A model generated the notes under the pieces. That model had not been told where the DNA came from. It was given only the letters and a program-made list of their open reading frames with translations, and ran no database searches. Positions 29,504-61,891 of a stretch of 62,972 bases of DNA are shown here, in pieces (position 1 is the stretch's first letter; the number at the start of each line of letters is the position of its first letter). This DNA comes from an uncultured Caulobacterales bacterium. Lineage in GTDB: Bacteria > Pseudomonadota > Alphaproteobacteria > Caulobacterales > Maricaulaceae. A program made the translations under genes and the position numbers. The stretch is from assembly GCA_937929915.1 (NCBI GenBank), contig CALFUN010000034.1:1-62972 (forward strand). The letters run 5' to 3'.

Positions 29504-30973
29504 TTAGACACCCAAAACGCCTAAAATTAGATATAAAACCGTTGTCACCCCGCCCCCAATCAGCGCGTAAGGGATTTGTGTGCGTATATGATCAATATGG
29601 TCATTGGCTGTAGCCATGCTTGTAATAATGGAGGTGTCAGAAGTGGGCGAACAATGATCTCCGAAGATGCCGCCGCCTAATGAGGCCGCAATCGCAAGAC
29701 TGATATTCGCATCCATAGATTGGGCCAAAGGAATGGCAATCGCGATCATAATCGCAAATGTACCCCAACTTGTACCTGTTGAAAACGCCACAAAACAGGC
29801 GACCAAAAATATCATTGCAGGCACCAAAGCTGGATTGATAAATTGACTCGCAACATCCGCCACATATTGCCCCGTCCCCAGTTCACGGCATAATGCGCCC
29901 AGCGCAAAAGCTAGCACCATTAAAATCGCCAACGGGACCATCGCCGCCATCCCCAAAAGACTTTGTTCAAAACTTTCACGAATTTTAAGAACGCCAAAGA
30001 TTTTATATAAAATCATAGCAAATAATACGGCAAAGCTTGTCGCATATAAAACGGATTTCGACCCAGAGCCACCTTGCAGGCGGGCTAAAAATGTCTCGCC
30101 TTGCCCTGTCATGATAAGAAATGACGGCATTAAAATAACCATTGCCATAATCGGCAAGAGCATAAACCGCGCTTGAGGTTTCACGCCTGATTTAATATCG
30201 ACGCCTGACGCGCCATCAGCCATCATCACTTGCGCGCCTTGCCGAACAAGTGCGCCCGTTTGTGCACTGCGCTGCTCGGCACGCTTCATCTCGCCTATAT
30301 CCTTACCTGATAAAATCACGAAAATGAGGATAGCAAAGACCAATATCGGGTAAAAATTTACGACGGTGGCAGATAAAAGCACTCCAAATGGATTGGCCAG
30401 ACCCTGCGCGGCGATAAGCCCTGTAATAAACGCACCCCAAGCATTAAAAGGGATTAAGATACATGACGGAGACGCAGTTGAATCTGTGATATAAGCCAGT
30501 TTCTCTCGCGGAATACCGAGCTTGTCAAAAACGGGGCGGTACACCGTACCAACAGTTAATATAGAGATGTTGCTCTCAATAAATAAAAACACTCCCGTTA
30601 TAACGGCCAATAATTCCACGATTTTGCGCTGACCTTTGCTGTTGGCTTTGACACTTAACCCGTCAAGCCAGTTCAAAAGCCGCTGCACGAAACCGTCTAC
30701 GCCGCCAGAGCGCTGTATAAGGGCGATCAAAGCCCCGACCACTAATGTAAAAATTATAATGCGCGTATTACCCGCATCAGAAAATACATCAACAAAACCG
30801 TCTATCGCTGCAAATGTTCCGGCGGCGGGATTACCGCCAGCTAAAATCACAAAGCCGAGCCATATGCCCGCCGCTAGCGATAAAAAGACTTGCCGCGTCA
30901 TCAATGCAAGGCCGATTGCTAAAACAGGCGGTAGTAATGAGAGCCAATGAAAGCCGTCAGGCAAGTTTTCCAT
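29504..30973 (-). CDS. NhaC-type Na+/H+ antiporter family protein
   Basis: 489 residues with 11-13 membrane helices: LLPPVLAIGLALMTRQVFLSLAAGIWLG at the N-terminus, ITDSTASPSCILIPFNAWGAF, and FSTGTSWGTFAIMIAIAIPLA ... GGGIFGDHCSPTSDTSIITS, the ion-transport family (ArsB/NhaC) signature. Family members exchange Na+ for H+ or transport organic anions. The C-terminal GDHCSPTSD loop is typical of NhaC. Single gene; divergent from the exporter operon. Confidence 0.9.
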   Translation of the reverse strand: MENLPDGFHWLSLLPPVLAIGLALMTRQVFLSLAAGIWLGFVILAGGNPAAGTFAAIDGFVDVFSDAGNTRIIIFTLVVGALIALIQRSGGVDGFVQRLLNWLDGLSVKANSKGQRKIVELLAVITGVFLFIESNISILTVGTVYRPVFDKLGIPREKLAYITDSTASPSCILIPFNAWGAFITGLIAAQGLANPFGVLLSATVVNFYPILVFAILIFVILSGKDIGEMKRAEQRSAQTGALVRQGAQVMMADGASGVDIKSGVKPQARFMLLPIMAMVILMPSFLIMTGQGETFLARLQGGSGSKSVLYATSFAVLFAMILYKIFGVLKIRESFEQSLLGMAAMVPLAILMVLAFALGALCRELGTGQYVADVASQFINPALVPAMIFLVACFVAFSTGTSWGTFAIMIAIAIPLAQSMDANISLAIAASLGGGIFGDHCSPTSDTSIITSMATANDHIDHIRTQIPYALIGGGVTTVLYLILGVLGV

Positions 30974-31107: not shown

Positions 31108-31338
31108 ATGTCTAATTTATTTCGAAAAGAAGCCCTTGATCACCGCTCACGCGCACTTTACGGCGAGGTGGTTCTGCGCGCCCCGCTCGGGTCATGGATC
31201 ATTACTGCGCTACTCATAGGGCTGATCGCAATTCTCTGCGCGGCTTTATTCTGGCTACAGGTTCCAATAGATACAGACACAAGCGCAGAGGTCAGGACAG
31301 TGAGCCTATTTGAATGGCTAGCCTCGGGCGGCCAGTAA
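31108..31338 (+). CDS. Truncated CvaA/HlyD-type adaptor: N-terminus and membrane anchor only
   Basis: 76 residues: LFRKEALDHRSRALYGEVVLRAPLGSW is the typical cytoplasmic start of CvaA-type membrane fusion proteins paired with C39 exporters. One membrane helix follows (~29-50, IITALLIGLIAILCAALFWL), then a short 25-residue tail (ending LFEWLASGGQ). The coiled-coil, lipoyl and beta-barrel domains of normal ~400-residue adaptors are absent, and no remnant lies in any frame because the exporter starts on the same bases (TAATG, 31336-31340). Either a deletion derivative or a dedicated mini-partner of the ABC protein. The clean coupling and intact frame favour the latter. Confidence 0.75.
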   Translation: MSNLFRKEALDHRSRALYGEVVLRAPLGSWIITALLIGLIAILCAALFWLQVPIDTDTSAEVRTVSLFEWLASGGQ

Positions 31339-33383
31339 TGGCAAAATTACCTGTAATCTTACAAACGGAGATGACCGAGTGCGGGCTTGCTTGTCTGGCG
31401 ATGATTGCGCGTTATTATGGGCATAATATTGATTTAAATGTGCTGCGCCAAAAGCATCTTGTATCTATGACTGGGGCCTCGCTAAAATCTATCATGCAAA
31501 TTGCCGATAGTTTAGACCTTGGCAGCCGCCCCTTACGGCTCGATATGGATCATTTGCATAAGCTGCAACTTCCTGCCATTTTGCATTGGGACTTAAATCA
31601 TTATGTCGTCTTAAAATCCGTAAAAGGCGATAAGGCCGTTATCATTGATCCAGGCATTGGGCAGCGCAGCTTGAGCTTATCAAACATGTCTAAACATTTC
31701 ACGGGCGTGGCCTTAGAGCTAACGCCGACAGCGCAATTTTCTGCGTTAGATGCGCGGTTAAAGCCTCATATCGGTTTACTGTGGTCAAAACTGATCGGCC
31801 TTAAGCGCGCCATTTTCCAAACTCTGAGCCTATCCATTATTTTACAAGCTATTGTCCTGCTCAGTCCGTTTTACTTGCAGCTCGTCATAGATGCCGCCCT
31901 GCCCAATCCGCAGACCAACATATTGCTGGCCTTAGCGCTCGGATTTGGCGGCTTGGCGGTTTTACGCGCCATAGCCGAAGCGGCGCGGAGCTGGGCTATT
32001 TTGGTGTATGGCAATCAAATGAGTTTGCAGATGGTCGGCAATGTCTTTCGGCACCTTATCCGCTTGCCGGCCCGTTATTTTGAAAAACGCCATGTCGGCG
32101 ACATTATTAGCCGCATGGGCAGCACCCAGCCTATACAGCAAGCCTTAACGCAATCTGTTGTGAGCGTTTTAATTGACGGTGTTATGGCGGCGCTCATGCT
32201 TGTTGTGATGTTTTTATATGCGCCCATATTAGGCACAATCGTTTTAGGGAGCGCGGCACTGCTGATTCTGTCCACTTGGCTCATCTATCCGCATTTACGC
32301 CGCACACAAGAAGAAACAATTTACACCAAAGCCTTAGAAAATACGCATCTGATTGAGAGCATTCGCGCCAATATAACGGTGAAATTATTTGGCCGCGAAG
32401 CGGAGCGCGAAGCGGCATGGCGCAATCTCTATACGGATTTCATCAATGCCAATGTCAGCTATGGCCGCTTTGTTATAGCTCGTAAATTTTTCATGACGCT
32501 TATCACAGGGCTGCAAGTTATCTTGGTTGTCTGGGCGGCGGCCAAATTGATGCAAGCGGGCGATACGGGGTTTACTCTGGGTATGCTTGTTGCCTTTCTG
32601 GCTTACCGTCAATATTTCACCGATAGCCTGACCATGCTGCTCGAAAAGGCCATAGAATTTAGCTTACTCTCGCTGCATCTTGACCGTCTGAGCGATATTA
32701 TTTTCGAAGAGGCGGAAATACAAAATACAGATGATACACCGCACGCCATTCAAGGCGCGATAAGCCTGAAAGATATTGCCTTTCGCTATAGCGAGTCTGA
32801 CCCCTGGGTTTTGCAAGATTTCAATCTGGATATTCAAGCTGGCGAGATGGTGACACTCACAGGGCCATCTGGCGGCGGGAAAACAACCTTGATGAAGCTC
32901 ATGCTTGGGCTTTATGCGCCGGTGACCGGGCAAGTGTCGGTGGATGGTCAGAATTTGACCGATATGGATATAATGAATTGGCGACGCCATATCGGCGTTG
33001 TCATGCAAGATGATCGCCTCTTAACGGGAACGATTGCCGATAATATCAGCTTTTTTGACCCCAAAATTGACCTCCAGCGCGTTGCGCAGGCCGCGCAAGC
33101 CGCGCAGATACATGACACAATCGCGAAAATCCCAATGAACTATATGGCGATGGTTGGCGATATGGGCTCGGTGTTATCGGGCGGGCAAAAACAGCGTGTC
33201 TTACTCGCGCGCGCACTTTACCAAAACCCAAAGGTTTTATTTTTGGATGAAGGCACAGCAAATTTGGACGTGGAAACCGAAGCTGCGATTGTTCAAATTA
33301 TAAAAACTTTGCCGATGACCCGCGTGATTATCGCGCACCGTCCAGCCTTTTTGGAAAACTCAGACCGCGTCATACGGCTGTAA
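31338..33383 (+). CDS. Peptidase-containing (C39) ABC exporter of double-glycine peptides
   Basis: 681 residues, inner membrane. The N-terminal C39 peptidase has Q9 and C15 (LQTEMTECGLACLAMIARYYG), H88 (HWDLNHYVVL) and D104 (VIIDP), so the catalytic set is intact. The transmembrane domain (~150-430) is followed by a nucleotide-binding domain with GPSGGGKTTLM (Walker A), LSGGQKQRVLLARAL (signature) and VLFLDEGTANLD (Walker B). Such proteins cleave after Gly-Gly in a leader and export the core. Start ATG 31338 overlaps the upstream stop. The likely substrate is the 45-residue peptide at 33623; partner adaptor is the truncated protein or an adaptor elsewhere. Confidence 0.95.
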   Translation: MAKLPVILQTEMTECGLACLAMIARYYGHNIDLNVLRQKHLVSMTGASLKSIMQIADSLDLGSRPLRLDMDHLHKLQLPAILHWDLNHYVVLKSVKGDKAVIIDPGIGQRSLSLSNMSKHFTGVALELTPTAQFSALDARLKPHIGLLWSKLIGLKRAIFQTLSLSIILQAIVLLSPFYLQLVIDAALPNPQTNILLALALGFGGLAVLRAIAEAARSWAILVYGNQMSLQMVGNVFRHLIRLPARYFEKRHVGDIISRMGSTQPIQQALTQSVVSVLIDGVMAALMLVVMFLYAPILGTIVLGSAALLILSTWLIYPHLRRTQEETIYTKALENTHLIESIRANITVKLFGREAEREAAWRNLYTDFINANVSYGRFVIARKFFMTLITGLQVILVVWAAAKLMQAGDTGFTLGMLVAFLAYRQYFTDSLTMLLEKAIEFSLLSLHLDRLSDIIFEEAEIQNTDDTPHAIQGAISLKDIAFRYSESDPWVLQDFNLDIQAGEMVTLTGPSGGGKTTLMKLMLGLYAPVTGQVSVDGQNLTDMDIMNWRRHIGVVMQDDRLLTGTIADNISFFDPKIDLQRVAQAAQAAQIHDTIAKIPMNYMAMVGDMGSVLSGGQKQRVLLARALYQNPKVLFLDEGTANLDVETEAAIVQIIKTLPMTRVIIAHRPAFLENSDRVIRL

Positions 33384-33549
33384 CAAACGCCGCGCTCACC
33401 CCAAGCCTTCACCTTTGTTTAACCTTATTTTTTAACAGCCTTTACAACTTAAATGGCAACTTACACAGAATAGCTCAATTTAAAATCGACAGCCTTGATA
33501 CCAAGTAAGGGTAGTTATAAAAAACAGCTCGCCTGAAAAGATATTAACC

Positions 33550-33578
33550 TTGATGAAATACTAAGGTATAACGTTAAT
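33550..33578 (+). promoter_or_regulatory. Candidate promoter of the FPIIIG peptide gene
   Basis: TTGATG (33550-33555) and GTTAAT (33573-33578) are 17 bases apart and each match the sigma-70 consensus at four of six positions. The initiation point would fall inside the 10-bp inverted repeat that begins at 33578. Confidence 0.4.
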
Positions 33579-33605
33579 TATATGTAACGGGGTGTTTACA
33601 TATAA
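33578..33605 (+). promoter_or_regulatory. Perfect 10-bp inverted repeat, operator or leader hairpin
   Basis: TTATATGTAA (33578-33587) and TTACATATAA (33596-33605) are perfect inverse complements around an 8-base spacer. It lies just downstream of the candidate -10 and just before the ribosome site (GAGAGA, 33611-33616). It could be the binding site of a regulator of the peptide gene or a hairpin at the 5' end of its mRNA. Confidence 0.65.
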
Positions 33606-33622
33606 AAAATGAGAGAACCATC

Positions 33623-33760
33623 ATGCGCGAATTAACACATGAAGAAGTAGAAGCTGTAGTGGGCGGTTTCCCAATTATTATAGGCGCAGAGGCACCTACA
33701 TCCGCTTTTCCAATTATTATAGGCGTAGAAGCGTCTGCTTTTCCAATTATTATTGGTTAA
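33623..33760 (+). CDS. Double-glycine leader pro-peptide with three FPIIIG repeats
   Basis: 45 residues, too short for ordinary gene callers. Residues 1-15, MRELTHEEVEAVVGG, form a textbook C39 leader (MRELTxxEVxxVxGG). The core after GG is FPIIIG, linker AEAPTSA, FPIIIG, linker VEASA, FPIIIG; the last copy ends exactly at the C-terminus. Each copy is preceded by small residues (VGG, TSA, ASA), so FPIIIG is the conserved unit. GAGAGA lies upstream as ribosome site and a strong terminator follows. It sits 239 bases after the C39 exporter, its presumed processor, and 133 bases before a sensor kinase. Signal, bacteriocin or surface peptide are all possible; signal is my preferred reading. Confidence 0.88.
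   Translation: MRELTHEEVEAVVGGFPIIIGAEAPTSAFPIIIGVEASAFPIIIG
33668..33757 (+). repeat. Three in-frame repeats encoding FPIIIG
   Basis: Units begin at 33668, 33707 and 33740. The core CCA ATT ATT ATA GGC is identical in the first two copies and differs only at two synonymous third positions in the last (ATT GGT). The linkers are related too (GCAGAGGC versus GTAGAAGC). The near identity at synonymous sites points to recent duplication by slippage or recombination. Confidence 0.9.
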
Positions 33761-33797
33761 TTACACCACACAATTTTAAGCTTAAAACTTTAAAAGT

Positions 33798-33819
33798 AAC
33801 CCGCGAAAGCGGGTTTTTT
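33798..33819 (+). terminator. Strong terminator of the FPIIIG peptide gene
   Basis: AACCCGC (33798-33804), GAAA tetraloop, GCGGGTT (33809-33815), T-run to 33819. It lies 37 bases after the stop, so the peptide has its own short transcript. Confidence 0.93.
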
Positions 33820-33893
33820 ATTATCTAATGCATTAAAACGATTAGTTAATCATTTACCATGATAATTAAGGCAATAATTTCATTGGTAGACCT

Positions 33894-36731
33894 ATGCCTA
33901 AATACATAAAACAACACTCTTTACTGTGCAGCGCGGCTATGGCTTTGTTTGTGTGCATGCCTGTTAAGAGCAATTCTCAAACTAATACTATTGCATCTGA
34001 AACTATAGAATTAGCCAAAGATATTGAATTTTTAACAGATAAAAATGATGTTGATAAAATTAAACATAATATTGTGCCTTTAAACGAGTTAACTATCTTA
34101 AGGCAGGAGGTGTCTAAAATCATTAGTCAAGAAATTGACGCTGATTTAAATTTGGCTATTCAAACTTATAATAAAACTGCTAATCAAAAAGGCACTCAGC
34201 GCGATCAAGAAATTGGAAAAATACTCCAAGATATTATCAATGTCATTGATCATAACAACCTAGATAAAAATGCCGATACGGTCATAAATAAAATCGAGCC
34301 TTATAAAACTCACACGGATTGGTTTGTTGCCAGCCACGCCCATATTTATTCGAGCCTTTTTCACAGCTATAAACGCGATTATATTATTGCGCTACAAGAT
34401 GCCAATCATGCGCTTGACCTCATACCAAATGTGCTAAACTCGGCTGTTAGCGAAGCCAAATTATATGCAACTAACATCGTCGCCTATTTGCATAACCTTC
34501 AGAATAATACCGAATTGGCAGTGAAAACATCACAAGATTTAGTGGATTTACATATCCACTCTGGCCTTGAGATAAATGGAGTCTCGATTCTCAATAATCT
34601 TATGTATTCCGTTGGAAACTCACGTGACCATGAAACAGGCAAAGAGCTGGCGCAAATCTTGCTGCGTCTCGAAGAACAAACAGACAACACCACGCCAGGG
34701 CTAACCGATTTACGCGTTGCCGAAGTTTATAATGAATTGGGCAAATATGATTTAGCCTTAAAGCACGCGCAAAAAACTCTAAAGAAGACAGAAATCACCT
34801 TTTTTCTTCAACAAGCGCATACACAATCTGCTATTGCCTATGCTGGGCTTGGCCTAACTGCGCCGGCCATTCGGGAGCTTAAAAAACTTGGCCCGAGGCG
34901 CTCTGTTAAAGATTTACTCTCACAGCCTGCCCCGGACGGTATTTTATATGCCGAAGCCTTAATCGCTCTGAGTCAAGGCCAAGGTGAGCGCGCGATTCGC
35001 CTAATGAATCGCCGCTTAGATGTGAGCGTTCAAGAAATTTTAAACCGTAACAATAGGGATACGACAAATTTACTCGCTAATCTGGAGAATAACCGCGCAC
35101 GGCAAGAAGAGCGCGAAAAATCTTTAAAACGCGAAGCTGACCTCAAAGCCGCGCAGCTTGAGGCGCAAAAACGCATCACAAAGCTTTTAATCTTGCTCGC
35201 AGCTATCCTCGCCATTTCCACCACGGCCGCAATATTATTTGCCCGTTACCGTAGTCAAATCTCCAAAGAACTCGCCATTCAAACCAAAGCGGCCCAGTCT
35301 GCTGATAAGATGAAGTCAGAATTTCTTGGCATGGTCTCACATGAGCTGCGCACGCCCCTTAACGGAATTATTGGCATCGCCGATTTATTGGCCAATCATC
35401 ATAAAGATCCCGATATTCGCCAGAAAACAAAAATTATCCTCGATTCAGGCAATGATCTCACCGCTATCATTGAGAGCATTATCGACATGTCACATATTGA
35501 AGGCGGGAAACTGTCTATCTATGCCGATGAGGTCAATCCCTATGAGGATATAAAAGCGGTAATCGCGATTTGGGAACAGCAAGCGATTGATAAAGACCTA
35601 ACCTTCACCGCCTTTATGGATGAGACTATCAATCAAGATATGCATATAGACATTGCCCGCTTTAACCAATGTTTGCAGAATCTATTATCAAATGCGGTAA
35701 AATTCACACAATCTGGCCGTATCCATGTGCATATGACCGCGCAGGTCAATGATAATCAGGACATGGAGATTAAAACCATTATCGCCGATACAGGGCAAGG
35801 CATCACCGAAACTGTCCAAGCCAAACTCTTCACGCCTTTCTTGCAAGCCGATAGCTCCATGACGCGCAAACATGGCGGGGCGGGACTTAACCTAGCCATT
35901 ACACAAGCCATAGCCCGCATGATGGGCGGGGATGTGAGCCTTGTGTCCAATGCTGGGCGCGGCTCTGAATTTACGTTCACTATGAAAGCTTCGCTGGCCA
36001 ATATTTCAACTCAGGCAACAGACATAGGCACAGACCTATTAAAGCCTGAGGCTATAGCGGCAGCCCATGAACCGCTATCCAGCGGTGATTTAGAAGCGAT
36101 TGATATAATAAACGCAGTCTCAGACAGTGAAGACTTCAATGAGAGCTTAGATGAAGTTTTAGATGAAAGTTTAGAGGCAAATCTATCCGAAAATATCTTA
36201 GATCTGATGCAGCCTAGTAAAGTTTCAGGGCAACAACCGCTACATGGCGCGCCCCTTAGCTATGAGCCAGAATACTCCGCCGCTGCGCCGCTGCCGCATA
36301 TTGAAACCCCTACGCTCCAAGACCTGAATGGCCTCAAAATTCTCATTGTCGAAGATATGGCGACAAATCGCGACATTATCCGCCTATTCCTCGATTCGAC
36401 GGGCTGTATCTGTCTGGAAGCCGAAAGCGGGCAGCAAGCCTTGGAGGTTCTGCAAAACCATACTGTCGATATAATCCTTATGGATATTCATATGCCCATT
36501 ATGGATGGCATCGAAACCACCAAGATTATCCGTACCACAGATAATCCACATAAAAACACGCCTATTATCGCCCTGACCGCTGACTCAGCCGCGGCTATTA
36601 ATGCGCAGTGCTTGCGTGTTGGTATGGATATATTCCTTGCCAAGCCGATTATATCGGCAGACTTAACCGCATCTATTTTATTCTTGCTCAATCAACGTCA
36701 GCACAATCCGCAACGCGCATTGGCCGTATAA
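33894..36731 (+). CDS. Hybrid sensor histidine kinase with TPR-like, probably periplasmic, sensor region
   Basis: 945 residues. Signal-type N-terminus (HSLLCSAAMALFVCMPVKSNS); ~400 residues of helical repeats, TPR-like around VAEVYNELGKYDLALKHAQKTL and AHTQSAIAYAGLGLTAPAIREL; coiled coil (~395-425); one membrane helix (~429-452, LLILLAAILAISTTAAILF). Then HisKA with H483 (FLGMVSHELRTPLNG), HATPase (NLLSNAVKFTQSG, DTGQGI, GGAGLNLAI), an acidic linker, and a C-terminal receiver with phospho-acceptor D864 (IILMDIHMPIMDG). No separate response regulator or output domain is nearby. TPR folds can bind peptides, so it may sense the neighbouring FPIIIG product (inference). Confidence 0.93.
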   Translation: MPKYIKQHSLLCSAAMALFVCMPVKSNSQTNTIASETIELAKDIEFLTDKNDVDKIKHNIVPLNELTILRQEVSKIISQEIDADLNLAIQTYNKTANQKGTQRDQEIGKILQDIINVIDHNNLDKNADTVINKIEPYKTHTDWFVASHAHIYSSLFHSYKRDYIIALQDANHALDLIPNVLNSAVSEAKLYATNIVAYLHNLQNNTELAVKTSQDLVDLHIHSGLEINGVSILNNLMYSVGNSRDHETGKELAQILLRLEEQTDNTTPGLTDLRVAEVYNELGKYDLALKHAQKTLKKTEITFFLQQAHTQSAIAYAGLGLTAPAIRELKKLGPRRSVKDLLSQPAPDGILYAEALIALSQGQGERAIRLMNRRLDVSVQEILNRNNRDTTNLLANLENNRARQEEREKSLKREADLKAAQLEAQKRITKLLILLAAILAISTTAAILFARYRSQISKELAIQTKAAQSADKMKSEFLGMVSHELRTPLNGIIGIADLLANHHKDPDIRQKTKIILDSGNDLTAIIESIIDMSHIEGGKLSIYADEVNPYEDIKAVIAIWEQQAIDKDLTFTAFMDETINQDMHIDIARFNQCLQNLLSNAVKFTQSGRIHVHMTAQVNDNQDMEIKTIIADTGQGITETVQAKLFTPFLQADSSMTRKHGGAGLNLAITQAIARMMGGDVSLVSNAGRGSEFTFTMKASLANISTQATDIGTDLLKPEAIAAAHEPLSSGDLEAIDIINAVSDSEDFNESLDEVLDESLEANLSENILDLMQPSKVSGQQPLHGAPLSYEPEYSAAAPLPHIETPTLQDLNGLKILIVEDMATNRDIIRLFLDSTGCICLEAESGQQALEVLQNHTVDIILMDIHMPIMDGIETTKIIRTTDNPHKNTPIIALTADSAAAINAQCLRVGMDIFLAKPIISADLTASILFLLNQRQHNPQRALAV

Positions 36732-36732
36732 T

Positions 36733-39700
36733 TTAAGGCTGTGAATAGCTGCGCGCTTGCGAAGCGCCTGGGCCTGCCGCGCTGGCAGCTGGGCTAATCC
36801 GGCGTAAAAGACCACGGGCTGTGTTTTGATCAAACTTCAAGCGCATCTGCAAGTAAACGCCATCACGGGAAAACTCTGCAGCCTCAAAATCATCATCTTT
36901 AAAGCCTGAGAAATTATAGCCTGCATTAATCCAAACATTTTTCACAGGCGACACACCAATGGACGGGCCATAGCTAAATGAGCGGCCATCACCATCTGTA
37001 TTACTGATAAATTGCCCGCGGAAACCAATGTCAATCTTTTCTGTGACATCAAAGCGGGTCTCTGCGCCGACCAGATGCGTTGTATTGCTAAATTCTTGAC
37101 CTGCAATATCGGCACGCACATTTTTCACACCCCAATTCGTTGATAGCTGCCAACGTTCATTCACCAGTGTATTTGCCGCGAAATTATTGACAACCTTAGA
37201 CGTGCGCTGACCAAGGACATCTTCACTGCGGTTAAAGTCCAGACGGTTAAATACAATCGTCTTTTCATCACGCGGACGCCAAGCTCCGCCAAAACGCACA
37301 TCAAGCTGATTTGAAGAATTTTCAGTCGGGCCTGCATCATTTATAAGTCCGCGCGCCGCGCCCGCAAAAGATAAAGTCTCTGTCAGCTCGCGCGCTGCAC
37401 CAGCTGTTGCAATATAGGTATCACCCTGCTCTGTTTGGCGAGTTTCAACCCGCACAGAGCCTGATGTTTTTTCATTGCGATAAGCCGCGCCGACATAAGC
37501 CGATGTAAAGTCTTCATTGACCTCAAAAGGCGAGATCGCGGCGTCAGGCGTAACTTGCAAAAACTCCGTATCTGTATCTAAAACACGGCGGCTACGAATA
37601 CCACCAGACACGGCCCATTTATCACCGAGTTTGACAAGTTGATCAACGCCAATCGTCGCGCCTAAACGGCGGCCACTATCATTTGTCACAGCATCCGTAT
37701 TTGCGGTTAAAGTTGTCCCATTCCACGGCGTAGCTGTTACACCCACAACAGTATTTTGCGCATTCACACCCGCCCCGTCATTGATTTCATGACGCACAGA
37801 TACCGTTGCGCGCTGTCCGATTGTTTTATCAAGACCAATCGTTGTGCGCTGCGGGAAGCCTGAAACTTCATCATCACCACCTAATGGCTGCTCATGGCTT
37901 AACTGTATTGTCGCGCCATGTTTAGGCAATGAATATGATGCCCGTGCAATCGCCAAAGTCGAATTGCGATCTTCGCCGCTGACAATATTGTCGCGCACGG
38001 CTCGCAAGCCGCCAGACACTGTTAACTGGCTACCTTGATGTGTTGCCAGTACTTCGCCTGTATTGCGAGAATCTCCCGTTGATAGGTTTTCTTCGCGGAA
38101 AGCTTGCGCTTCAATACGGCGCTGCCCACGGCGGCCTGTCTTTTCATCTTCAAATTCATCCAATGTATAATTCCCGCGCGCGCCATAACGTCTTATATTA
38201 TTGGTATTACTGGCGCGTTGACCCAGACCAAAGCCAGCTTCTTCTTCGCGGAAGAAAGCTTCTCCTGTGAGTTTTTCGGAATTATGCACGACTTCAACTA
38301 AGGTTGCATCAGCCGTCCCGCCGCCCGCAGAATTATTATCTGTAATCGCATATTCTGCGCGAATTTGCGTATTGTCAGTAATATCTGCGATAACATCAAC
38401 GCCCACTTGAACTTGTTGAGATCCTGCGGTCAATGCGCTCCCATCTTCACGCACAAATGTTGAGCCAACTTGAATTTTTTTGTCGAGGAACTGCGCCTGA
38501 ACACGTCCTCCAAATGTCACATTACGTTCAGCATCTTCTGATGTTTCATAATCCACAACAATCACATTTGGATTCAGGTTCGCATCTGTCGCATCCACTG
38601 GAAGGCGGAAGATTAACTGGCCTGTGAGGTAATCTAGCGTATAGTCTAAGAAACGTACAAGTGTACGGCTCTCGACAATCACGTCAGGACGGAACCGATC
38701 ACGCGTTTCAATAATAATTTGCTCAGATTGCGGCAATACCCGCTCATTAGACAGCTGATAAGTGCCAGAGGTGCCATCCGCAGCTAATTCATCTTTTACA
38801 AAGCCTTGGTTCGTTTCAGCTGCAAAGCCAAGCACTTGCACATTTTCGCCAAGATACTCTGCCTTTAAGCCCGTAAAGCGGCGATTATATGACGTCAAAC
38901 GCCCTTCAGTGATGTTTGTTTCGTAATCCCCAAACACCGCATAAGCTTGGCGCTTTTCAAGCTTCACATAAACTGGATAGCGTGAATTTCCTTCAAACTC
39001 TTGGTAAGAGCGGTCTCCATAAAGCGTATAAAACGCATTCGGGTCAATCTCATCGCGGAATGCACCATCACGATTCCCGCGGCGGCGATCTGTATCTACG
39101 CCCAGCGTTAAAAGCCAGTCACCTTTAATCAAACCTTTTGCAAAAAACGCGACACGGCCATCGGTAATAACGTCATCAGCCACATTTCCTGTTGCATCCA
39201 AAGCCACACTATTGCCGCTCACATTATCATAGCCAACAGAACCTTCCGCTAAACCTACCAAAATCCAGTCGCGTTTTTCAGGCTCAAGATACATATAGAT
39301 CGGAACTTGGCGGCCATTATCTAACGTCGCAATCACTGTGACTTTACCCGTGCGCAGCGTTGGCTCTAATTTCACGCGCAAAATACCATCCGTGCCGATT
39401 GACAAATCTTGACGAGCCGATAATGGCGCAATTAAATCTTCGGACTGCTCTCGCAAGCGGTTATCACCGCTTTCATCAAATAGACGATATGGCGGCTCTA
39501 GATTGATCGTTGTGATCCGGCCTGCATGTACAGGACGCCCAGATTGATCTTCGAGACGAATAGCAATTTCTGGCGCAGTGCGGCCATCCGCCACTAAAAT
39601 AGATTCTGTCGGAACAGGCGTTGCTCGTGCAATCGTTTTTACAAACCAAATTTCTTCGCGCAAAGTTTTAATAACATTGCCATCACTATCTTTCACCGTC

Positions 39701-41847
39701 GCAATGACAACATTTCGGCCATCTTGAATGTCGATACCACGCCAGCGGCTTATCATGACGCTGCGATCAGCATTATTGCTACGCCCTGCATAATGATAAC
39801 TTGGAACATCGCGATCATTGATCGTTAGCGTAATAGATTGATCTCTGCCATGCTTAATCCCGATATTCGTAGAGCTTGTTGACGGCGTGCGGTCTGTATC
39901 TGGATAAACCCACTCAATATCGCTTGTTTGAGTTTCAAGCCAAGCTTCGTCATATTTTAAATGCTCTTTAGCATCATTAAATTCTTCAATTTCAACAATC
40001 TCTTCACGCGCGCCTGTTTGCTTCAAATAGAAGTTGGCACGCCAAATACCACCGCCTTGCACATCAACGAATTTACTTTCATTTGACCCTGCATAGCGCG
40101 TATTTTCCTCGCACGTCATCAGTTCGAAACCTTGCGGCAAAGTCTCTTTATCGACCTGCACAACATGTGTGCCTTCGCTTACGCCTTCAAAATGATATAA
40201 ACCGTCACTGTCAGAGACAACATAAGCCCCTGTTTCCATATATAAGCGCACGCCAGCTATTCCAGTGCCGCGCTCTAAAGGACGCACCCACTCTACATCA
40301 CCATCACAAGATTTTTCTGTAATACGCCCTACAATCGTAGAGGTACTGCGCAGTAAATCTTCACGTATTGTGATACCCGCGCGGGCAATATTTGAAATTT
40401 GCTCACCGCTACCATCGCGCACAACGGCGGCGTTCACGGCATCCCCAAGCGTTGCGCCAGGGCCAATTAAAAGTGCATAATCTAAAGTAATGGATTCGCC
40501 AGCGGCTATCAAATCCATATCAAATGTTAAAAGCGACGCATCTGCGCTGACCTGCGGCTCATCACTTGATATTTGCTCAATACGGGATGTGCCCGGTACA
40601 TATCTAAATCCAAGCGGTAAAGTATCATGCAAAATTGCAGGTACCGTTGCTGTGCCGCGATTTTCAATCGTCACACTGTAATTAATATAATCGCCCACAT
40701 CCCCAAATGTACGATCTGCAGATTTCGTGACAATAATATCAGAAATAGGATCAAGAGGAATATCAAAGCGCAAAGTCCCTGCGCTATCCAGCGTAATAGC
40801 CTCACCGAAAGAGGCAGGTAGAATCACATAGCCATTATCCCCAGTTTTCCCAGCATCAACCCCTACGCTTGTCAGTTGGTCAAGTCCAACAACTGATGAG
40901 AATGTATAGCCTTCTGGCGGATCAACACGCACGGCATAGTTACCAGCATCTAGTAGCGGATACCGAAACTCGCCTTGCCCGTTTTCATAGACAAGGTTGC
41001 TAGAGTCCCAAACATCTTCACCTGAAACCACGTCAGATGGAAATGTCGAAAACCCATCAACACCAAAGACATCAGCTTCTAGACCTGTATCCAGATTAAT
41101 CAATGTAATCTGAGCGCCATCTACTGGTTCACCCGTAACAGAGCTGAAAACACGATTGAGCGGGTTTAAAATCGCCGTATCAACAGTCACATCTGTTGAA
41201 TCAAAAGCATCTATATAGGTCGCCGTTAATTGCGTATTCCCGCCCGCTGAAATCATATTATCATTTTGCGGCGAGGCTAAAGGCGTGGAAGGCAAATATA
41301 CAAAAAACTCACCTGAATTGGCTTCAGATTCAAACAAACGCAGCGTAATCGCATCCCCATTATCTGCAGATACTGTGATTACAATCGTATCAATGGCATT
41401 TGAATCAAGATTTTGTCCCGTATCTACCACGCGGATGAACATCAGCTCACCTGCCAGATAAGTTGTGGCGGGAATGAGCGGCACAGGGCCAGATATATCA
41501 ACTAATTGTCCGCCCGCTGTCACAGGTTCACCAATCGCGGTAAACGGCCCGTCTAATTGCCCAGATGGACTAAACTCAGAGCCATTTATATTGCGGTAAA
41601 TGGGATCCGTTGCCGTTTCCGAAACACGGAAAAATTCAATAACAGCTGGAGTTGCAGGTGGACGTATCGTGAAAACGGCGCGCGGCGTCACAACAGTTTC
41701 TATTGTCTGTCCGAGCGTATAGGAAACTGTCGCAATATTCGTAACATCCGTACCAAAATTATTGGCAAGAGATGCATCAGCGCAGGCAAGCCATGCCGTT
41801 GCTGCGAATATAACCGTTCCGATGTTATGTTTAGGTGATAATGTCAT
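36733..41847 (-). CDS. Giant secreted DUF11/SdrD-like surface protein with probable C-terminal beta-barrel
   Basis: 1704 residues with a signal peptide (VIFAATAWLACADASLA). The N-terminal part has several Ig-like modules; a DUF11-type repeat (IIVTKSADRTFGDVGDYINYSVTIENRGTATVPAILHDTLPLGFRYVPG) lies near residue 380. An SdrD-B-like module (GIAGVRLYMETGAYVVSDSDGLYHFEGV) follows near 540. The last ~750 residues alternate polar and aromatic strands (FFAKGLIKGDWLLTLGVDTD, VFGDYETNITEGRLTSYNRRFTGLKAEYLG), as in outer-membrane barrels. Start ATG 41847 shares the upstream context GTGGAC with the next gene. An outer-membrane adhesin or assembly role is likely, not shown. Confidence 0.8.
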   Translation of the reverse strand: MTLSPKHNIGTVIFAATAWLACADASLANNFGTDVTNIATVSYTLGQTIETVVTPRAVFTIRPPATPAVIEFFRVSETATDPIYRNINGSEFSPSGQLDGPFTAIGEPVTAGGQLVDISGPVPLIPATTYLAGELMFIRVVDTGQNLDSNAIDTIVITVSADNGDAITLRLFESEANSGEFFVYLPSTPLASPQNDNMISAGGNTQLTATYIDAFDSTDVTVDTAILNPLNRVFSSVTGEPVDGAQITLINLDTGLEADVFGVDGFSTFPSDVVSGEDVWDSSNLVYENGQGEFRYPLLDAGNYAVRVDPPEGYTFSSVVGLDQLTSVGVDAGKTGDNGYVILPASFGEAITLDSAGTLRFDIPLDPISDIIVTKSADRTFGDVGDYINYSVTIENRGTATVPAILHDTLPLGFRYVPGTSRIEQISSDEPQVSADASLLTFDMDLIAAGESITLDYALLIGPGATLGDAVNAAVVRDGSGEQISNIARAGITIREDLLRSTSTIVGRITEKSCDGDVEWVRPLERGTGIAGVRLYMETGAYVVSDSDGLYHFEGVSEGTHVVQVDKETLPQGFELMTCEENTRYAGSNESKFVDVQGGGIWRANFYLKQTGAREEIVEIEEFNDAKEHLKYDEAWLETQTSDIEWVYPDTDRTPSTSSTNIGIKHGRDQSITLTINDRDVPSYHYAGRSNNADRSVMISRWRGIDIQDGRNVVIATVKDSDGNVIKTLREEIWFVKTIARATPVPTESILVADGRTAPEIAIRLEDQSGRPVHAGRITTINLEPPYRLFDESGDNRLREQSEDLIAPLSARQDLSIGTDGILRVKLEPTLRTGKVTVIATLDNGRQVPIYMYLEPEKRDWILVGLAEGSVGYDNVSGNSVALDATGNVADDVITDGRVAFFAKGLIKGDWLLTLGVDTDRRRGNRDGAFRDEIDPNAFYTLYGDRSYQEFEGNSRYPVYVKLEKRQAYAVFGDYETNITEGRLTSYNRRFTGLKAEYLGENVQVLGFAAETNQGFVKDELAADGTSGTYQLSNERVLPQSEQIIIETRDRFRPDVIVESRTLVRFLDYTLDYLTGQLIFRLPVDATDANLNPNVIVVDYETSEDAERNVTFGGRVQAQFLDKKIQVGSTFVREDGSALTAGSQQVQVGVDVIADITDNTQIRAEYAITDNNSAGGGTADATLVEVVHNSEKLTGEAFFREEEAGFGLGQRASNTNNIRRYGARGNYTLDEFEDEKTGRRGQRRIEAQAFREENLSTGDSRNTGEVLATHQGSQLTVSGGLRAVRDNIVSGEDRNSTLAIARASYSLPKHGATIQLSHEQPLGGDDEVSGFPQRTTIGLDKTIGQRATVSVRHEINDGAGVNAQNTVVGVTATPWNGTTLTANTDAVTNDSGRRLGATIGVDQLVKLGDKWAVSGGIRSRRVLDTDTEFLQVTPDAAISPFEVNEDFTSAYVGAAYRNEKTSGSVRVETRQTEQGDTYIATAGAARELTETLSFAGAARGLINDAGPTENSSNQLDVRFGGAWRPRDEKTIVFNRLDFNRSEDVLGQRTSKVVNNFAANTLVNERWQLSTNWGVKNVRADIAGQEFSNTTHLVGAETRFDVTEKIDIGFRGQFISNTDGDGRSFSYGPSIGVSPVKNVWINAGYNFSGFKDDDFEAAEFSRDGVYLQMRLKFDQNTARGLLRRISPAASAAGPGASQARSYSQP

Positions 41848-41881
41848 GTCCACATCCGCTTGAGAGATTTGGGCAGGTGGT

Positions 41882-57426: not shown

Positions 57427-58743
57427 TTAATCAATCGGCAAAGCCGCCGTTAGAGATAATAAGATGAGGCGCTCGCGCTCTAAATTATATTTCACATTCA
57501 GCGTTTGCAAACCAGCACGCTCATATTCTAACCGAATTTCTATCAAGTCTCTCAAAGTTTTTGTCCCTGCGGCCTGCTCCAGTTCAGCGGCTTCAAATTG
57601 CAGTAACGTTTGAGCTTCAACATCTTTACGGCTAATGAGTTGCTTTTCTAATGACGCGATACGGCGGTAGCCAATACTCACATCTTTACGTAATTGTCGT
57701 CTGGCATCCAAAACACGGCCGCGTGCCACAGCTTCGCGCGCGCCAGCACCTTGGCGCCGCGCCGCAATCGAATTACCTGCATAAAGCGGCACAGTTACAT
57801 TTACCCCAATACGCTCTTGAAATTCAAAGCTATCAAAGCCGCCCAGCGAAGAGTAAGCCCCCGTTGCAACGACTTCCAAAATTGGCAACCGTGAACGGCG
57901 CTCGCGTTCTTTGGCCGCTTCCAGGCCATCGGCGCGCTTATCTAGCGCTTTAATATTAGGGTTATTCGCCACCGCGGCCTGAGCCGCAACCTCTTCATTT
58001 TGCAATCTTACAAAGTTATTTTTCAGCAGGTTATTTGTACCAATTTCGCTAGCACAATGATTAACCCGAGACTCTGTATCAATTTGCACTTGCGCAAGCG
58101 CGCTTTCGCGGCGAAATTCTAGTTCTAAAACAAAGCTTTCAGCATCCGCGAGTTGAGAAGCTACAGCGGCGCGTTCTGTGCGTGTCGCTGCGCCAACTTG
58201 TAATAATTTATCAGTTGCGGCTAATTGCTGGGCGAAATAATCACGCCGCCGAGACGTTAGCGCAATTTGCTCTTCCGCCTCAAGCAAGGTCAAGAATGTC
58301 GCCCCCGTTTCCCGCGCAGCCGTTAAGCGCGCTTGACGAGTATCTTCTATGGACGCTTCAAAATTACTTTGCGCCGTTCTGCGGGCATATTTTGCATCGC
58401 CAAAGTCAAACACACGCTGAGAGGCCCGCAAGCCAGCTTGATTAGACACACCACTATCAACAATACCTGTATCCCCCGCGCCCGAGCGGCCAAATGCAGA
58501 TACGCGCGGACGAAATAAGGATTTGGCTTCTTTAATCTGCGAGTCCGCTTCTGTTTCAAAGCCTCGCGCAATTAATACAGACGGCGCGCGTTCCGCAGAT
58601 AATTTCAAAACATCAGCAAGGCGCAAGCAATTTGTTGTGGATTCGGCCGCCAAGCTTTGCGCTTGGACGGAATTATAAGCCCCTAACGCCAGTAAGGTAA
58701 CAGCTGACATAGCTGTGCATTTTAAATTTGATGTCAATGACAT
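57427..58743 (-). CDS. TolC-family outer-membrane channel protein
   Basis: 438 residues, signal peptide (SAVTLLALGAYNSVQA). Two outer-membrane efflux protein repeats with long coiled-coil helices (FETEADSQIKEAKSLFRPRVSAFGRSG, ARETGATFLTLLEAEEQIALTSRRRDYFAQQLAAT, AAELEQAAGTKTLRDLIEIRLEYERAGL). Third gene of a type I secretion operon behind the ABC and adaptor genes, so it is probably the outer-membrane exit for the RTX protein. Confidence 0.93.
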   Translation of the reverse strand: MSLTSNLKCTAMSAVTLLALGAYNSVQAQSLAAESTTNCLRLADVLKLSAERAPSVLIARGFETEADSQIKEAKSLFRPRVSAFGRSGAGDTGIVDSGVSNQAGLRASQRVFDFGDAKYARRTAQSNFEASIEDTRQARLTAARETGATFLTLLEAEEQIALTSRRRDYFAQQLAATDKLLQVGAATRTERAAVASQLADAESFVLELEFRRESALAQVQIDTESRVNHCASEIGTNNLLKNNFVRLQNEEVAAQAAVANNPNIKALDKRADGLEAAKERERRSRLPILEVVATGAYSSLGGFDSFEFQERIGVNVTVPLYAGNSIAARRQGAGAREAVARGRVLDARRQLRKDVSIGYRRIASLEKQLISRKDVEAQTLLQFEAAELEQAAGTKTLRDLIEIRLEYERAGLQTLNVKYNLERERLILLSLTAALPID

Positions 58744-58820
58744 GATCTCTCTCCAAATCTCGTCTGTAAAAAAGCCCTATATCAGCTTAACGTCGGGACA
58801 CAAAGCGTAGGGCCATTTGA

Positions 58821-60146
58821 CTATGAGGTACGCAATCCGCGGAATAAGCTCTCACGTAAAGGCTCGAAGAAATAATCCAGCATTGTGCGGCTATTTCCTG
58901 AGAAAATAAACACATCAACGGGCATGCCCGGGATAATATCTATGTCTTGTGTTCGAGCAATTTCATTCGCGGGCACACGCACACGAGCTTCATAATATGT
59001 AAGCCCTGTAATCGCATCCGTTTTCAAATCAGCACTCACATCAATAATTTCACCTTCCAGACTTGGCGCTTGCCAGCCTTTATAAGATGAGAATTGTGTA
59101 CGCACAAATTGACCTTCTGAAATCGCCGATCGGTCCGTTGCTGCAATTTTCACAGAGGCTGTCACTTCATCAATCGCAGGGACAATTTCCATCAAAGTCT
59201 CGCCTGATCGTACAACACCGCCAATGGTTGAAAAGCTCATATTAAGAACTTCCCCGTCCACAGGCGCAATAATCACAGAGCGATCAAGAATATCCTGCGC
59301 AGCATTAAGGCTTTCTTCGCTGGTTAATAACTCACCACTTGTTGCTAGCAGCGTTGCTGCAATATCTTGCGACGCGCGTGCGCGTGTTTGCTCAATTTGG
59401 GCTGTATTATCCAGTTCGGTTGCTTTCGCATTTTCCCGGTCACTTTCCAGCCGCGCAATATCACCCTCTAATGTCGCAACAAGACGCTCTAATGATGTCA
59501 CTTGGTCACGGCGCGCTAATTGTTGTTCAAACATGTTAGACACAACACCAAGCTCTCCGCGTGCTGATTCCAGAGCTTTTCGCGCAATCGTAATCTGGCC
59601 TTCACTAGACGCTTGTAACTGCTTGGCGGCACGAATACGAGCCTCTAAAACCGCAACATCTGCGTTAAGGGAATTGCGCTGTTGATTAAAAAGTCCGCGC
59701 TCACGGCGGATAATATCAATGCGTTCACTTGCGCCCAGATCTAAATTATCAAGCACCCGAAAATCAGGCTGGCTTGCACCCGTTTGCAGCGCTTTTAATC
59801 GCGCGACAGAAGCGGCTAAAGCGCCATATTGCTGAACAACTTGGTCACGGTTGGACAATGACGCCGTTTTTTTCAAAACAACAAGCACATCGCCTTTTTT
59901 GACCAACTCGCCTTCGCGAACAAGGATTTCATCAACCAATCCGCCTTCCAGATGTTGGACAAGTTGGCGGTTATCTTCGACGACAATTTGCCCGCTCGCT
60001 GCCACACCTTCTTCAAGCGGTGCAATGCTGCCCCACGCCATAAATCCGCCAAAGCCAATCACGCAAATCGCCGCCATCTTCCAAACGATTTTATCCTTAA
60101 GAGCTCTAAATTTTGTCTCTGTTGTTGGTGTTTGTATTTGGGTCAT
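58821..60146 (-). CDS. HlyD-family periplasmic adaptor (type I secretion)
   Basis: 441 residues: cytoplasmic N-terminus, membrane helix (AAICVIGFGGFMAWGSIAPLEEGVAASGQIVV), lipoyl half-motif (LEGGLVDEILVREGELVKKGDVLVVL), ~200 residues of coiled coil, second lipoyl half (VIIAPVDGEVLNMSFSTIGGVVRSGETLMEIVP) and beta-barrel domain with the C-terminal GMPVDVFI. Full length, unlike the fragment at 31108. Overlaps the ABC gene by 4 bases. Confidence 0.95.
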   Translation of the reverse strand: MTQIQTPTTETKFRALKDKIVWKMAAICVIGFGGFMAWGSIAPLEEGVAASGQIVVEDNRQLVQHLEGGLVDEILVREGELVKKGDVLVVLKKTASLSNRDQVVQQYGALAASVARLKALQTGASQPDFRVLDNLDLGASERIDIIRRERGLFNQQRNSLNADVAVLEARIRAAKQLQASSEGQITIARKALESARGELGVVSNMFEQQLARRDQVTSLERLVATLEGDIARLESDRENAKATELDNTAQIEQTRARASQDIAATLLATSGELLTSEESLNAAQDILDRSVIIAPVDGEVLNMSFSTIGGVVRSGETLMEIVPAIDEVTASVKIAATDRSAISEGQFVRTQFSSYKGWQAPSLEGEIIDVSADLKTDAITGLTYYEARVRVPANEIARTQDIDIIPGMPVDVFIFSGNSRTMLDYFFEPLRESLFRGLRTS

Positions 60147-61891
60147 TTTCTGACTCCTACAGTCCGTAGCTGTGCCGCTGGTGCGTTGGCGGCTTTAGGC
60201 TTTAATGATTCAATATATTGCTGCGTATCGGCTGTCAGGATACCGCCTTCTCGCACCATCAAAATAGAATTCGTGGCTGTGATTAATTTATGGTCATGGG
60301 TCGACATAAGGACAATCGCGCCAGCCTCTGAAACAGCCTTCAAATTATCAATCGTTTGTAACACAGTCTTTGGATCCAGATTGGCTGTCGGCTCATCTAA
60401 TAACACCAAGACAGGATTGCCAAATAAAGCGCGCGCTAGGCCAATAAGTTGGCGTTGCCCTGCAGATAGTGAGCCTGCCCCCGGCACACCAATAGGCGTT
60501 TCATATCCCTCTGGAAGGCCCAAAATCATATCATGTGCGCCTGCTTTTTTCGCAGCTTCAATGACCGCCTCTGGCTGAGCTTGCGTCATGCGCGCAATAT
60601 TTTCGGCCACATTGCCTGGCAGCAATTCAATCTCTTGCGGGACATACCCTATATATTGACCGCGATCTTCACTCGGCCATGCGTGTAAGTCACGTCCGCC
60701 CAAATTCACTGCGCCTGAATGTGAACGCCAAGCCCCCGAAATCGTTTGCAATAAAGTTGTCTTGCCCGTTCCGTTACCGCCCATAATCGCAATCATCTGA
60801 CCGCCATTGGCTTCAAATCCAAAGGGACGAATAAGCGCTTCACGAGATCCCGGCACAGCCACAGATAAACGGTCAAGTTTTAACTTAGCCTCTGGCCGCG
60901 GCAGAGGTGTAAACGGCGCTTTTGTTTCATTATTCGCAATCGCTTTGCCAAGCTGATTCCATGCCAAGCGTGTCGCGGAAATGCCTCTCCAGCCGCCAAC
61001 AATTTGGTCGATTGGCCCTAAAGCCCGCGACATAATAATCGAACCTGCAACAATAGCCCCTGGTGAGACTTGCTGCGTAATCGCAAGCGCACCGCCAGTT
61101 CCAAGAATAATAATTTGTAACATCTGGCGGCCAGATTTCGTCACAGAGGCAAAGCCTGTTTCCTTTGCACCAGCTTTTAAATTAAGCTCGCGGGCCTGTT
61201 CTTTAGATTGGCGCCATTTAAACAAAGCATTATGTGTTAACCCCATAGCAATAATCGCAGAGCGTTGACGGCTCAGTCCGCTAGCCAAATTAAACGCTTC
61301 TGAATTTACAGCAGACGCCGTTTCATTTGTGCGCCGCGTTGTCAATTCTGCCGCAATGGCCACAGCCAGCAAAACAATGCCGCCTACAAGCCCAACAAGA
61401 CCAATGAGAGGATGAACCAAGAACATCACTCCTAAGAATAACGGCACAAATGGTAAGTCAAAAAATGGGAGAACAGATTGGTTCTGAAAAAATCCGCGAA
61501 TACGTGACAAGACACGCAAATCATTGGGTAAACGCCGCCCAGCATCATGGGTATTATCAAATTCGACAAAAACACGCTCAGACAGTTTTTCTTCTAATTC
61601 TTCCGCCGCAAGCGCACAAATACGGCGGCGGCCTGTTTCAGCAGCGCCAAAGATCGCTAATAGAAAAATCGCAATCAAAGTCATCCAAATCAACGTATCT
61701 TTGGAGCCTGAGGTTAAAATACGATCATAAACTTGCAGCATATAAAGCGGGGATACCAGCAACAGGATATTGCTGACCAAGCTAAAGGCTAAAATTGGGC
61801 CAAAATAGCCCGGTAATTCACGGCCCATGGCAAAAAACCAGCCTATTAAGCCTAGGTTTTTAGGGGGCGTTTTCTGTTTTTGCTTTGCCAT
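60143..61891 (-). CDS. Type I secretion ABC transporter (PrtD-like)
   Basis: 582 residues: five to six membrane helices, then the ATPase domain with IMGGNGTGKTTLLQTI, LSAGQRQLIGLARALFG and VLVLLDEPTANLDPKT. No C39 domain, as expected of PrtD/RTX-type exporters. ATG 61891 is supported by GAGAGAGA upstream. First gene of the operon; the RTX gene upstream in the same direction is separated by a terminator. Confidence 0.95.
   Translation of the reverse strand: MAKQKQKTPPKNLGLIGWFFAMGRELPGYFGPILAFSLVSNILLLVSPLYMLQVYDRILTSGSKDTLIWMTLIAIFLLAIFGAAETGRRRICALAAEELEEKLSERVFVEFDNTHDAGRRLPNDLRVLSRIRGFFQNQSVLPFFDLPFVPLFLGVMFLVHPLIGLVGLVGGIVLLAVAIAAELTTRRTNETASAVNSEAFNLASGLSRQRSAIIAMGLTHNALFKWRQSKEQARELNLKAGAKETGFASVTKSGRQMLQIIILGTGGALAITQQVSPGAIVAGSIIMSRALGPIDQIVGGWRGISATRLAWNQLGKAIANNETKAPFTPLPRPEAKLKLDRLSVAVPGSREALIRPFGFEANGGQMIAIMGGNGTGKTTLLQTISGAWRSHSGAVNLGGRDLHAWPSEDRGQYIGYVPQEIELLPGNVAENIARMTQAQPEAVIEAAKKAGAHDMILGLPEGYETPIGVPGAGSLSAGQRQLIGLARALFGNPVLVLLDEPTANLDPKTVLQTIDNLKAVSEAGAIVLMSTHDHKLITATNSILMVREGGILTADTQQYIESLKPKAANAPAAQLRTVGVRK

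Follow-up and report, generated by a model that had tools for sequence, protein, structure and literature searches.

A micropeptide precursor with three FPIIIG units between a C39 exporter and a sensor kinase: a candidate peptide-signal cassette in Alphaproteobacteria

The stretch of DNA analyzed here (the window, 62,972 nucleotides) is the whole of contig C34 in a 2.49 Mb assembly of 39 contigs from an alphaproteobacterium related to Litorimonas, which the NCBI taxonomy places in Maricaulales, Robiginitomaculaceae. It contains a micro-propeptide gene of 45 codons (33623-33760, forward strand) that translates to MRELTHEEVEAVVGGFPIIIGAEAPTSAFPIIIGVEASAFPIIIG followed by a stop codon. The precursor combines a 15-residue leader of the double-glycine (GG) type, MRELTHEEVEAVVGG, with a core that reads FPIIIG-AEAPTSA-FPIIIG-VEASA-FPIIIG, the stop codon directly following the third copy. 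The gene, the leader, the linkers and the three copies had been claimed in an earlier sequence-only reading of this DNA and were recovered exactly in our translation. The features of the surrounding cassette, including tetratricopeptide-repeat (TPR) and transmembrane (TM) regions, are as follows:

31108..31338 (+), one-TM stub of 76 residues that matches HlyD adaptors at its N-terminus only
31314..33383 (+), C39 peptidase-ABC exporter (Pfam C39, 9.6e-38; ABC membrane; ABC ATPase)
33611..33616 (+), Shine-Dalgarno-like GAGAGA before the propeptide start codon, as read from the sequence
33623..33760 (+), micro-propeptide gene, 45 codons and stop (sequence, shuffles, homologues)
33623-33667 (+), double-glycine leader, 15 residues
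33668-33685, 33707-33724 and 33740-33757 (+), FPIIIG units, with linkers AEAPTSA and VEASA
33798..33820 (+), intrinsic-terminator-like hairpin (stem-loop 33798-33815) and T-run between the propeptide and kinase genes
33894..36731 (+), hybrid histidine kinase, the proposed receptor: TPR-like N-terminal region, one TM segment, HisKA, HATPase and receiver
33969..35183 (+), predicted periplasmic, all-helical TPR-type sensor region (AlphaFold2)
35184-35240 (+), predicted TM segment of the kinase, after the TPR region

When the 30-residue core was shuffled 1,000,000 times, a hexamer occurred in two non-overlapping copies in 546 shuffles and in three copies in none; a test with 3- or 4-mers was too lax for such an isoleucine-rich core, and the hexamer test was used instead. 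The three FPIIIG copies of the window differ at 3 of 18 nucleotide sites, all synonymously. No Sec-type hydrophobic stretch can be read in the sequence of the leader. The promoter patterns close to the gene were weak and were given no weight. An intrinsic terminator no more than 110 bases past the stop codon was found for 36 of the 42 micropeptide genes described below (the window's included), as compared to 12 of 420 mononucleotide shuffles. An Rfam scan of positions 33300-34000 gave no match at the gathering threshold, and NCBIfam gave no match for the window peptide (P0001) and only matches far below the cut-off (BlpC and a lantibiotic) for the peptide of Fretibacter. Two other candidate explanations were rejected: a chance open reading frame (ORF), ruled out by the conserved leader, the terminators and the synonymous pattern, and an amyloid or adhesin repeat protein, ruled out by the single unit of most relatives.

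The micropeptide family and its repeated units

Searched against 40 relatives, the 45-residue protein gave matches in 15 genomes, mainly to its leader. The first seven homologues read beyond the window are ORFs with just 22-26 codons, which encode a leader like the window's and a single short core (VPIIVGQDF, YPIIVDF, MPILTGGIGEN, QPIIVGDF, LPIVIDF, GPIVIDF and APIIVDF). A leader model applied to 137 genomes of the taxonomic family matched 48 of them at E<=0.01, and micropeptide genes were accepted in 42 (41 at E<=1.2e-6, and G068 at 6.1e-5). The remaining six matches were weaker: five (G104, G106, G109, G111 and G145) sit in open frames of 48-225 residues, with those of G109 and G145 read as long peptides, and that of G053 is cut by a contig end. 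Second leader matches in G134 (at a contig end) and G074 (L257, with an 18-residue core) were left uncounted. The 42 carrier genomes span seven genera of one family, and among 385 genomes sampled across the class the same model found a single match at E<=0.001, the window's own genome. An earlier peptide model used across the order (E<=0.05) matched 53 of 398 genomes; its best matches outside the window's family (G038, 2.5e-6; G190, 1.1e-5) fall within long open frames (174 and 236 residues).

The leader varies little. In an alignment of 29 rows, M1, R2, L4, E8 and G14 are invariant and G15 is present in at least 90%, and the hydrophobic and acidic positions of the GG type, a feature of C39-exported peptides, are conserved. 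Of the 42 genes, 32 code for a lone unit of 5-11 residues as their core (for example, NPIIIG, YPIIVDF or KIVVD), with exactly seven residues in 20 of these 32, and nine genes have 2-5 copies. Altogether, the 32 single cores and 16 units from multi-copy genes represent 47 distinct sequences among 48. What relatives keep is the leader, the length of the unit and the sameness of the copies inside each gene; the sequence FPIIIG itself is not kept. At the cassette position in G119 (L074:3613-3753), the leader is followed by a basic core of 31 residues without repeats, unlike the other 41 members.

Tandem units for which DNA is available are FPIIIG in the window (three copies), SGPVIIET in Fretibacter rubidus (G018, three), FPIDIEV in Robiginitomaculum antarcticum (G115, two), LPIDIEV in G117 (three), LPADIEW in G116 (four), TPIDIEL in G118 (three), IPVIDF in G120 (four), RSIKT in G126 (four), and RGVVLAE (four) with RGVVLKD in G068. 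Those known from protein databases only are YPIIVG (P0002), APIIIG (P0006), SGPVIIED (P0007) and DPIVIDF (P0008), each in two copies, GPIIIG with GPIIYG (P0003), two copies of AIPIVDY then IEIA (P0015), and GPIVDY in three copies (P0017).

Across the units of eight multi-copy genes, the copies disagree at 39 of 159 nucleotides, all 39 synonymously, as compared to 9.2 expected. The test admitted copies in which as many as two or three residues had changed, so that altered copies would show; L260 was omitted for its uncertain unit boundary. The linkers, in contrast, differ at the protein level (SS/GN/SG, APGV/EPSV, GKA/EKA/DKA), except for the three identical ATA linkers of G116. Since only synonymous change separates the copies while the linkers change, each copy looks to be under purifying selection for its peptide sequence. 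The notion of a conserved unit with variable linkers is thus supported, the copies differing only synonymously in all eight multi-copy genes tested, and the view of the unit as signal-like rather than a bacteriocin agrees both with this pattern and with the single-unit core of most relatives. P0002 shares the window's leader, and both its copies depart from FPIIIG identically, as would be expected if the copies must fit one receptor.

The linkers of relatives include GKA, ATA, EPSV, VVGT, a single S, or nothing at all between two Fretibacter copies. They are too varied to support a fixed motif, and the suggestion that TSA and ASA are processing sites found no support. With no obvious shared linker motif for a single protease, the 30-residue core might stay uncut and bring kinase dimers together as a single multivalent ligand. 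However, most relatives have one unit with both ends free, and two-, three-, four- and five-copy forms coexist without fixed spacing, which makes an uncut ligand rather improbable.

The units could also be antimicrobial, as a very small bacteriocin or microcin, with the kinase sensing damage or controlling immunity. Microcins are the usual cargo where C39 exporters and GG leaders occur together, and long microcin-like GG peptides lie close to several of the more distant exporters. Nevertheless, cores of 5-11 residues without cysteines (32 of 42 genes) are shorter than the tens of residues of a class II microcin core, copies are exactly conserved within each gene, and the next gene beside the precursor is the sensor kinase (no search was aimed at genes for immunity or modification enzymes). 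We consider an antimicrobial role quite improbable.

Exporter and sensor kinase

The usual order of genes, on one strand, is the one-TM stub, the C39 ABC exporter, the micropeptide and the TPR-type kinase. The C39, ABC and kinase domain matches are near full length, and the window's exporter is the sole match in the assembly that covers the C39 part. Residues Q17, C23, H96 and D112, which we take to be the catalytic residues of C39, are invariant in 10 aligned exporters, and the exporter is predicted to cut the precursor after GG and to export the peptide. The earlier placement of a GG-leader precursor beside a C39 exporter is borne out by the Pfam match and by an exporter directly upstream of the micropeptide in 34 of 42 loci. 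Among the other eight, L058 and L075 are cut by contig ends and the piece of L258 is short; in L016, L254, L255, L256 and L260 no C39 gene was seen on the fetched stretch.

On a tree of C39 exporters, the 34 cassette members are split from 13 more distant exporters by a branch with a support of 99 (SH-aLRT, Shimodaira-Hasegawa-like approximate likelihood-ratio test). Tandem copies require at least four changes on this tree, which has Fretibacter and G068 outside it and was made by a quick method that leaves the direction of single/tandem change unsettled. Micropeptide and TPR-type kinase pairs without an adjoining exporter occur at L254, L255 (kinase masked), L256 and L260, with the cores MPPITE, GTVVVL, SLKVEV and a five-copy RGVVL precursor. 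Algimonas has a second C39 exporter (L116, on the same contig as L086), 48% identical to the window's and with a long GG peptide candidate nearby; it is apparently an ordinary microcin-type locus alongside the micropeptide cassette. In Mitsuaria chitosanitabida, a 50-residue GG peptide (L105:5346-5498) has a core that seems to hold a second leader-like stretch and GG, with PQV[LV]NDGP after each GG, possibly by a joint duplication of leader and core.

A histidine kinase gene follows the micropeptide on the same strand in 33 of 42 loci, and in the other nine the sequence stops short of it, as eight contigs end and L255 reads N just at the kinase start. The start of the downstream ORF lies 54-188 bases past the peptide stop in all 40 loci measured. 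With the kinase present in 33 of 33 visible places and the exporter in 34 of 42, the pairing of peptide and kinase is, as judged from gene order, at least as tight as that of peptide and exporter.

The sensor region of the kinase matched in 43 of the 137 family genomes: 36 have both peptide and kinase, six the peptide alone, seven the kinase alone, and 88 neither. On inspection, four of the six peptide-alone genomes (G068, G072, G074 and G075) do show the kinase or its TPR part. Among the kinase-alone genomes, G004, G008 and G011 are cut at or near the kinase start and G043 starts inside the kinase, while G003, G042 and G059 appear to have no peptide. The genome of G003 is 96% complete, with no peptide match and no C39 exporter found, and is possibly a receptor-only (eavesdropper) genome. 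At L311 (G003:C29:59000-64500) and L051, a complete TPR-type kinase stands beside a homologue of the window gene at 29504-30973.

The AlphaFold2 model of the window's sensor has a mean predicted local distance difference test score of 89.6 over 430 residues (33969-35258), and its predicted TPR fold resembles the pheromone receptors Rap and NprR. By hydropathy, the kinases listed have one strong TM segment before the kinase part, and most of them also an N-terminal hydrophobic segment, with no multi-TM sensor region; in relatives, the N-terminal signal segment was judged by eye and hydropathy. No regulator gene was recognized by eye downstream of the kinase among ORFs of at least 100 residues at 11 loci, without a domain search. 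No GG micropeptide was found among ORFs of 15-80 residues with a ribosome-binding-site-like stretch in the 700 bases upstream of 15 distant TPR kinases (L294-L308), which belong to other families in the order (f3, f4 and f5). Convergent with the window's kinase gene is a gene for a 1706-residue protein (36733-41853, reverse strand), and some relatives (L051, L052, L053 and L064) keep parts of it next to their kinase.

A candidate secreted peptide signal

Because relatives pair a similar leader and 1-5 short units with a sensor kinase gene just downstream, we consider it likely that the product of the three-unit gene is processed to a secreted oligopeptide pheromone, which would leave through the neighboring C39 protein and be sensed by the predicted TPR domain of the adjacent kinase. 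This proposal draws on what can be read from sequence comparison: the leader, the units, the apparent purifying selection on each copy, the single-unit form, the gene order and the domain matches. The sequence-only reading was upheld in part; it overlooked the sensor kinase downstream, the truncated adaptor and the fact that one copy is the usual form. In the proposed mechanism, the C39 peptidase would cleave after GG and the peptide would be exported and delivered into the periplasm, where envelope proteases could trim the linkers to free hexapeptides. A unit would then bind in the groove of the predicted periplasmic TPR region, and a phosphorelay would pass the output to an unlinked regulator. 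Several copies per precursor would give more signal per export event, and FPIIIG, at about 0.66 kDa, could pass between cells via porins.

Delivery to the periplasm is the simplest inference because the adaptor of the cassette is only a stub. The window cassette has this stub, without HlyD domains, in place of a full HlyD adaptor next to the ABC gene. The stub also occurs as a stand-alone gene in relatives, with 63-88 residues in 29 of 31 listed and 106 and 108 in two, perhaps due to start choice, and by eye it carries a tryptophan near its C-terminus. Adaptors of 408-412 residues stand at three more distant exporters (L093, L095 and L221, two of them checked as HlyD; L221 is a second Fretibacter locus with a C39 exporter), and many other distant stub matches have the start expected of a full adaptor, some 1.3 kb ahead of the ABC gene. 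Elsewhere in the window (57457-60892, reverse strand), a TolC-like outer-membrane gene, a full HlyD adaptor and an ABC gene matched in its ATPase part only apparently make up a type I secretion system of the ordinary kind that does not belong to the cassette.

With the cassette adaptor only a stub, and with no type I HlyD reaching the curated cut-off in G002 (best 54.6 vs 208.65 bits), a 99% complete genome that has the full cassette, a channel across the envelope is not obvious. The peptide may then stay in the periplasm and report its own export or the envelope state to the producer via the kinase. Such self-sensing is unlikely in our view: units of 5-8 residues (FPIIIG, 658 Da) are near the size for porin passage, type I HlyD is present elsewhere in six of the seven genomes searched (all but G002), and divergence of peptide cores between relatives is more usual for intercellular signals. 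We therefore favor a pheromone that serves communication between cells over a self-report by the producer.

Some results weigh against the proposed receptor. A control sensor, that of the distant kinase L295 modeled from an alignment of 15, with no peptide, matches Rap better than the window's sensor does, which weakens the fold match as evidence for peptide binding. In addition, partial Mantel tests on 25 systems gave no co-divergence of core and sensor, either given C39 (p 0.60) or given C39 and kinase (p 0.85). These uncorrelated distances and the existence of kinase-only genomes would suit a kinase that is a neighbor by history only, with some other receptor as the target of the peptide, such as one in a host alga or a different species. 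This we hold to be very improbable, as peptide and kinase are paired in 33 of 33 visible places, including loci without an adjoining exporter.

The chances are about even that the family represents a new class of Gram-negative quorum sensing, with ribosomal micro-propeptides that hold 1-5 copies of a 5-8-residue pheromone, export by C39 and stub, and kinases with periplasmic Rap/NprR-like TPR ectodomains. If so, it would include repeated switches between single and tandem forms, a core code diverged between relatives, and receptor-only genomes that may eavesdrop. Communication by secreted peptides is rarely described in Gram-negative bacteria, and here exporter, precursor, unit and probable receptor lie together in a single compact cassette. 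Relatives with one copy allow a guess at the mature signal, given how short the precursor is, and there are named carriers (Litorimonas cladophorae, with the core NPIVIDF, Fretibacter rubidus and Robiginitomaculum antarcticum). Synthetic peptides of six to eight residues make the question testable. The family also includes genes of 20-26 codons, which annotation length filters would usually drop.

Comparison with known systems

In Gram-positive bacteria, linear peptides are firmly established as pheromones; to our knowledge, signaling by GG peptides in Gram-negative bacteria has so far been mostly a proposal. In streptococci, the ComC/BlpC-ComAB/BlpAB-ComD/BlpH systems join a GG-leader pheromone, a C39 ABC exporter and a linked histidine kinase, as does the cassette described here. 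Their pheromones are longer and single-copy, their kinases are multi-TM with a response regulator gene alongside, and the envelope is Gram-positive; the window kinase has no multi-TM sensor region. Yeast pre-pro-alpha-factor, which the sequence-only reading had cited, likewise packs several copies of a pheromone, spaced by acidic/alanine stretches, into a single precursor, but it uses the eukaryotic secretory pathway, Kex2/Ste13 and a G-protein-coupled receptor and is an analogy only. A screen of Gram-negative genomes by Dirix and co-workers (2004) is said to have dealt with GG-leader peptides as signal molecules and bacteriocins. The combination of GG leader, C39 exporter, stub adaptor and membrane kinase was not recognized among the papers listed in the literature searches, which covered few subscription papers.

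HetC of Nostoc is a peptidase-type ABC exporter of a Gram-negative-type cell with a proposed role in the export of a signaling peptide; it differs in having an unassigned substrate and a cyclic-nucleotide-binding domain, and neither a TPR kinase nor tandem units are described in the available part of that report (PMC10986499).

The claim that no bacterial precedent exists for the layout fails, since tandem identical pheromones are known in Bacillota. According to PMC11343458, propeptides with tandem pheromones and short spacers are established for Rap-Phr systems, with up to eight copies reported; Phr105, for instance, has two ERPVGT copies with LKLA between them. According to PMC9765709, precursors with more than one copy are common for AimR, NprR, Rap and PlcR and were not found for Rgg or ComR, whose export routes, it was suggested, may be incompatible with duplication; in contrast, tandem units occur here in genes beside a C39 exporter. 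Like the Phr peptides of the RRNPPA family (Phr105, Phr3T), the micropeptides have short units in one or several copies with short spacers, the unit being better conserved than the spacers; ERPVGT also has six residues, and Phr105 has a copy at the C-terminus (PMC11343458). A TPR-fold receptor is likewise predicted in both. Phr/Rap systems belong to Firmicutes and rely on Sec export, re-import and a cytoplasmic receptor, whereas the alphaproteobacterial cassette combines a GG leader with a C39 exporter, and neither a Sec signal nor a cytoplasmic receptor was found in it. Its sensor is predicted to be periplasmic, with a TM segment after the TPR region followed by HisKA, HATPase and receiver domains. 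If the family is indeed a new class of quorum sensing, it would be a Gram-negative, membrane-bound counterpart of RRNPPA signaling.
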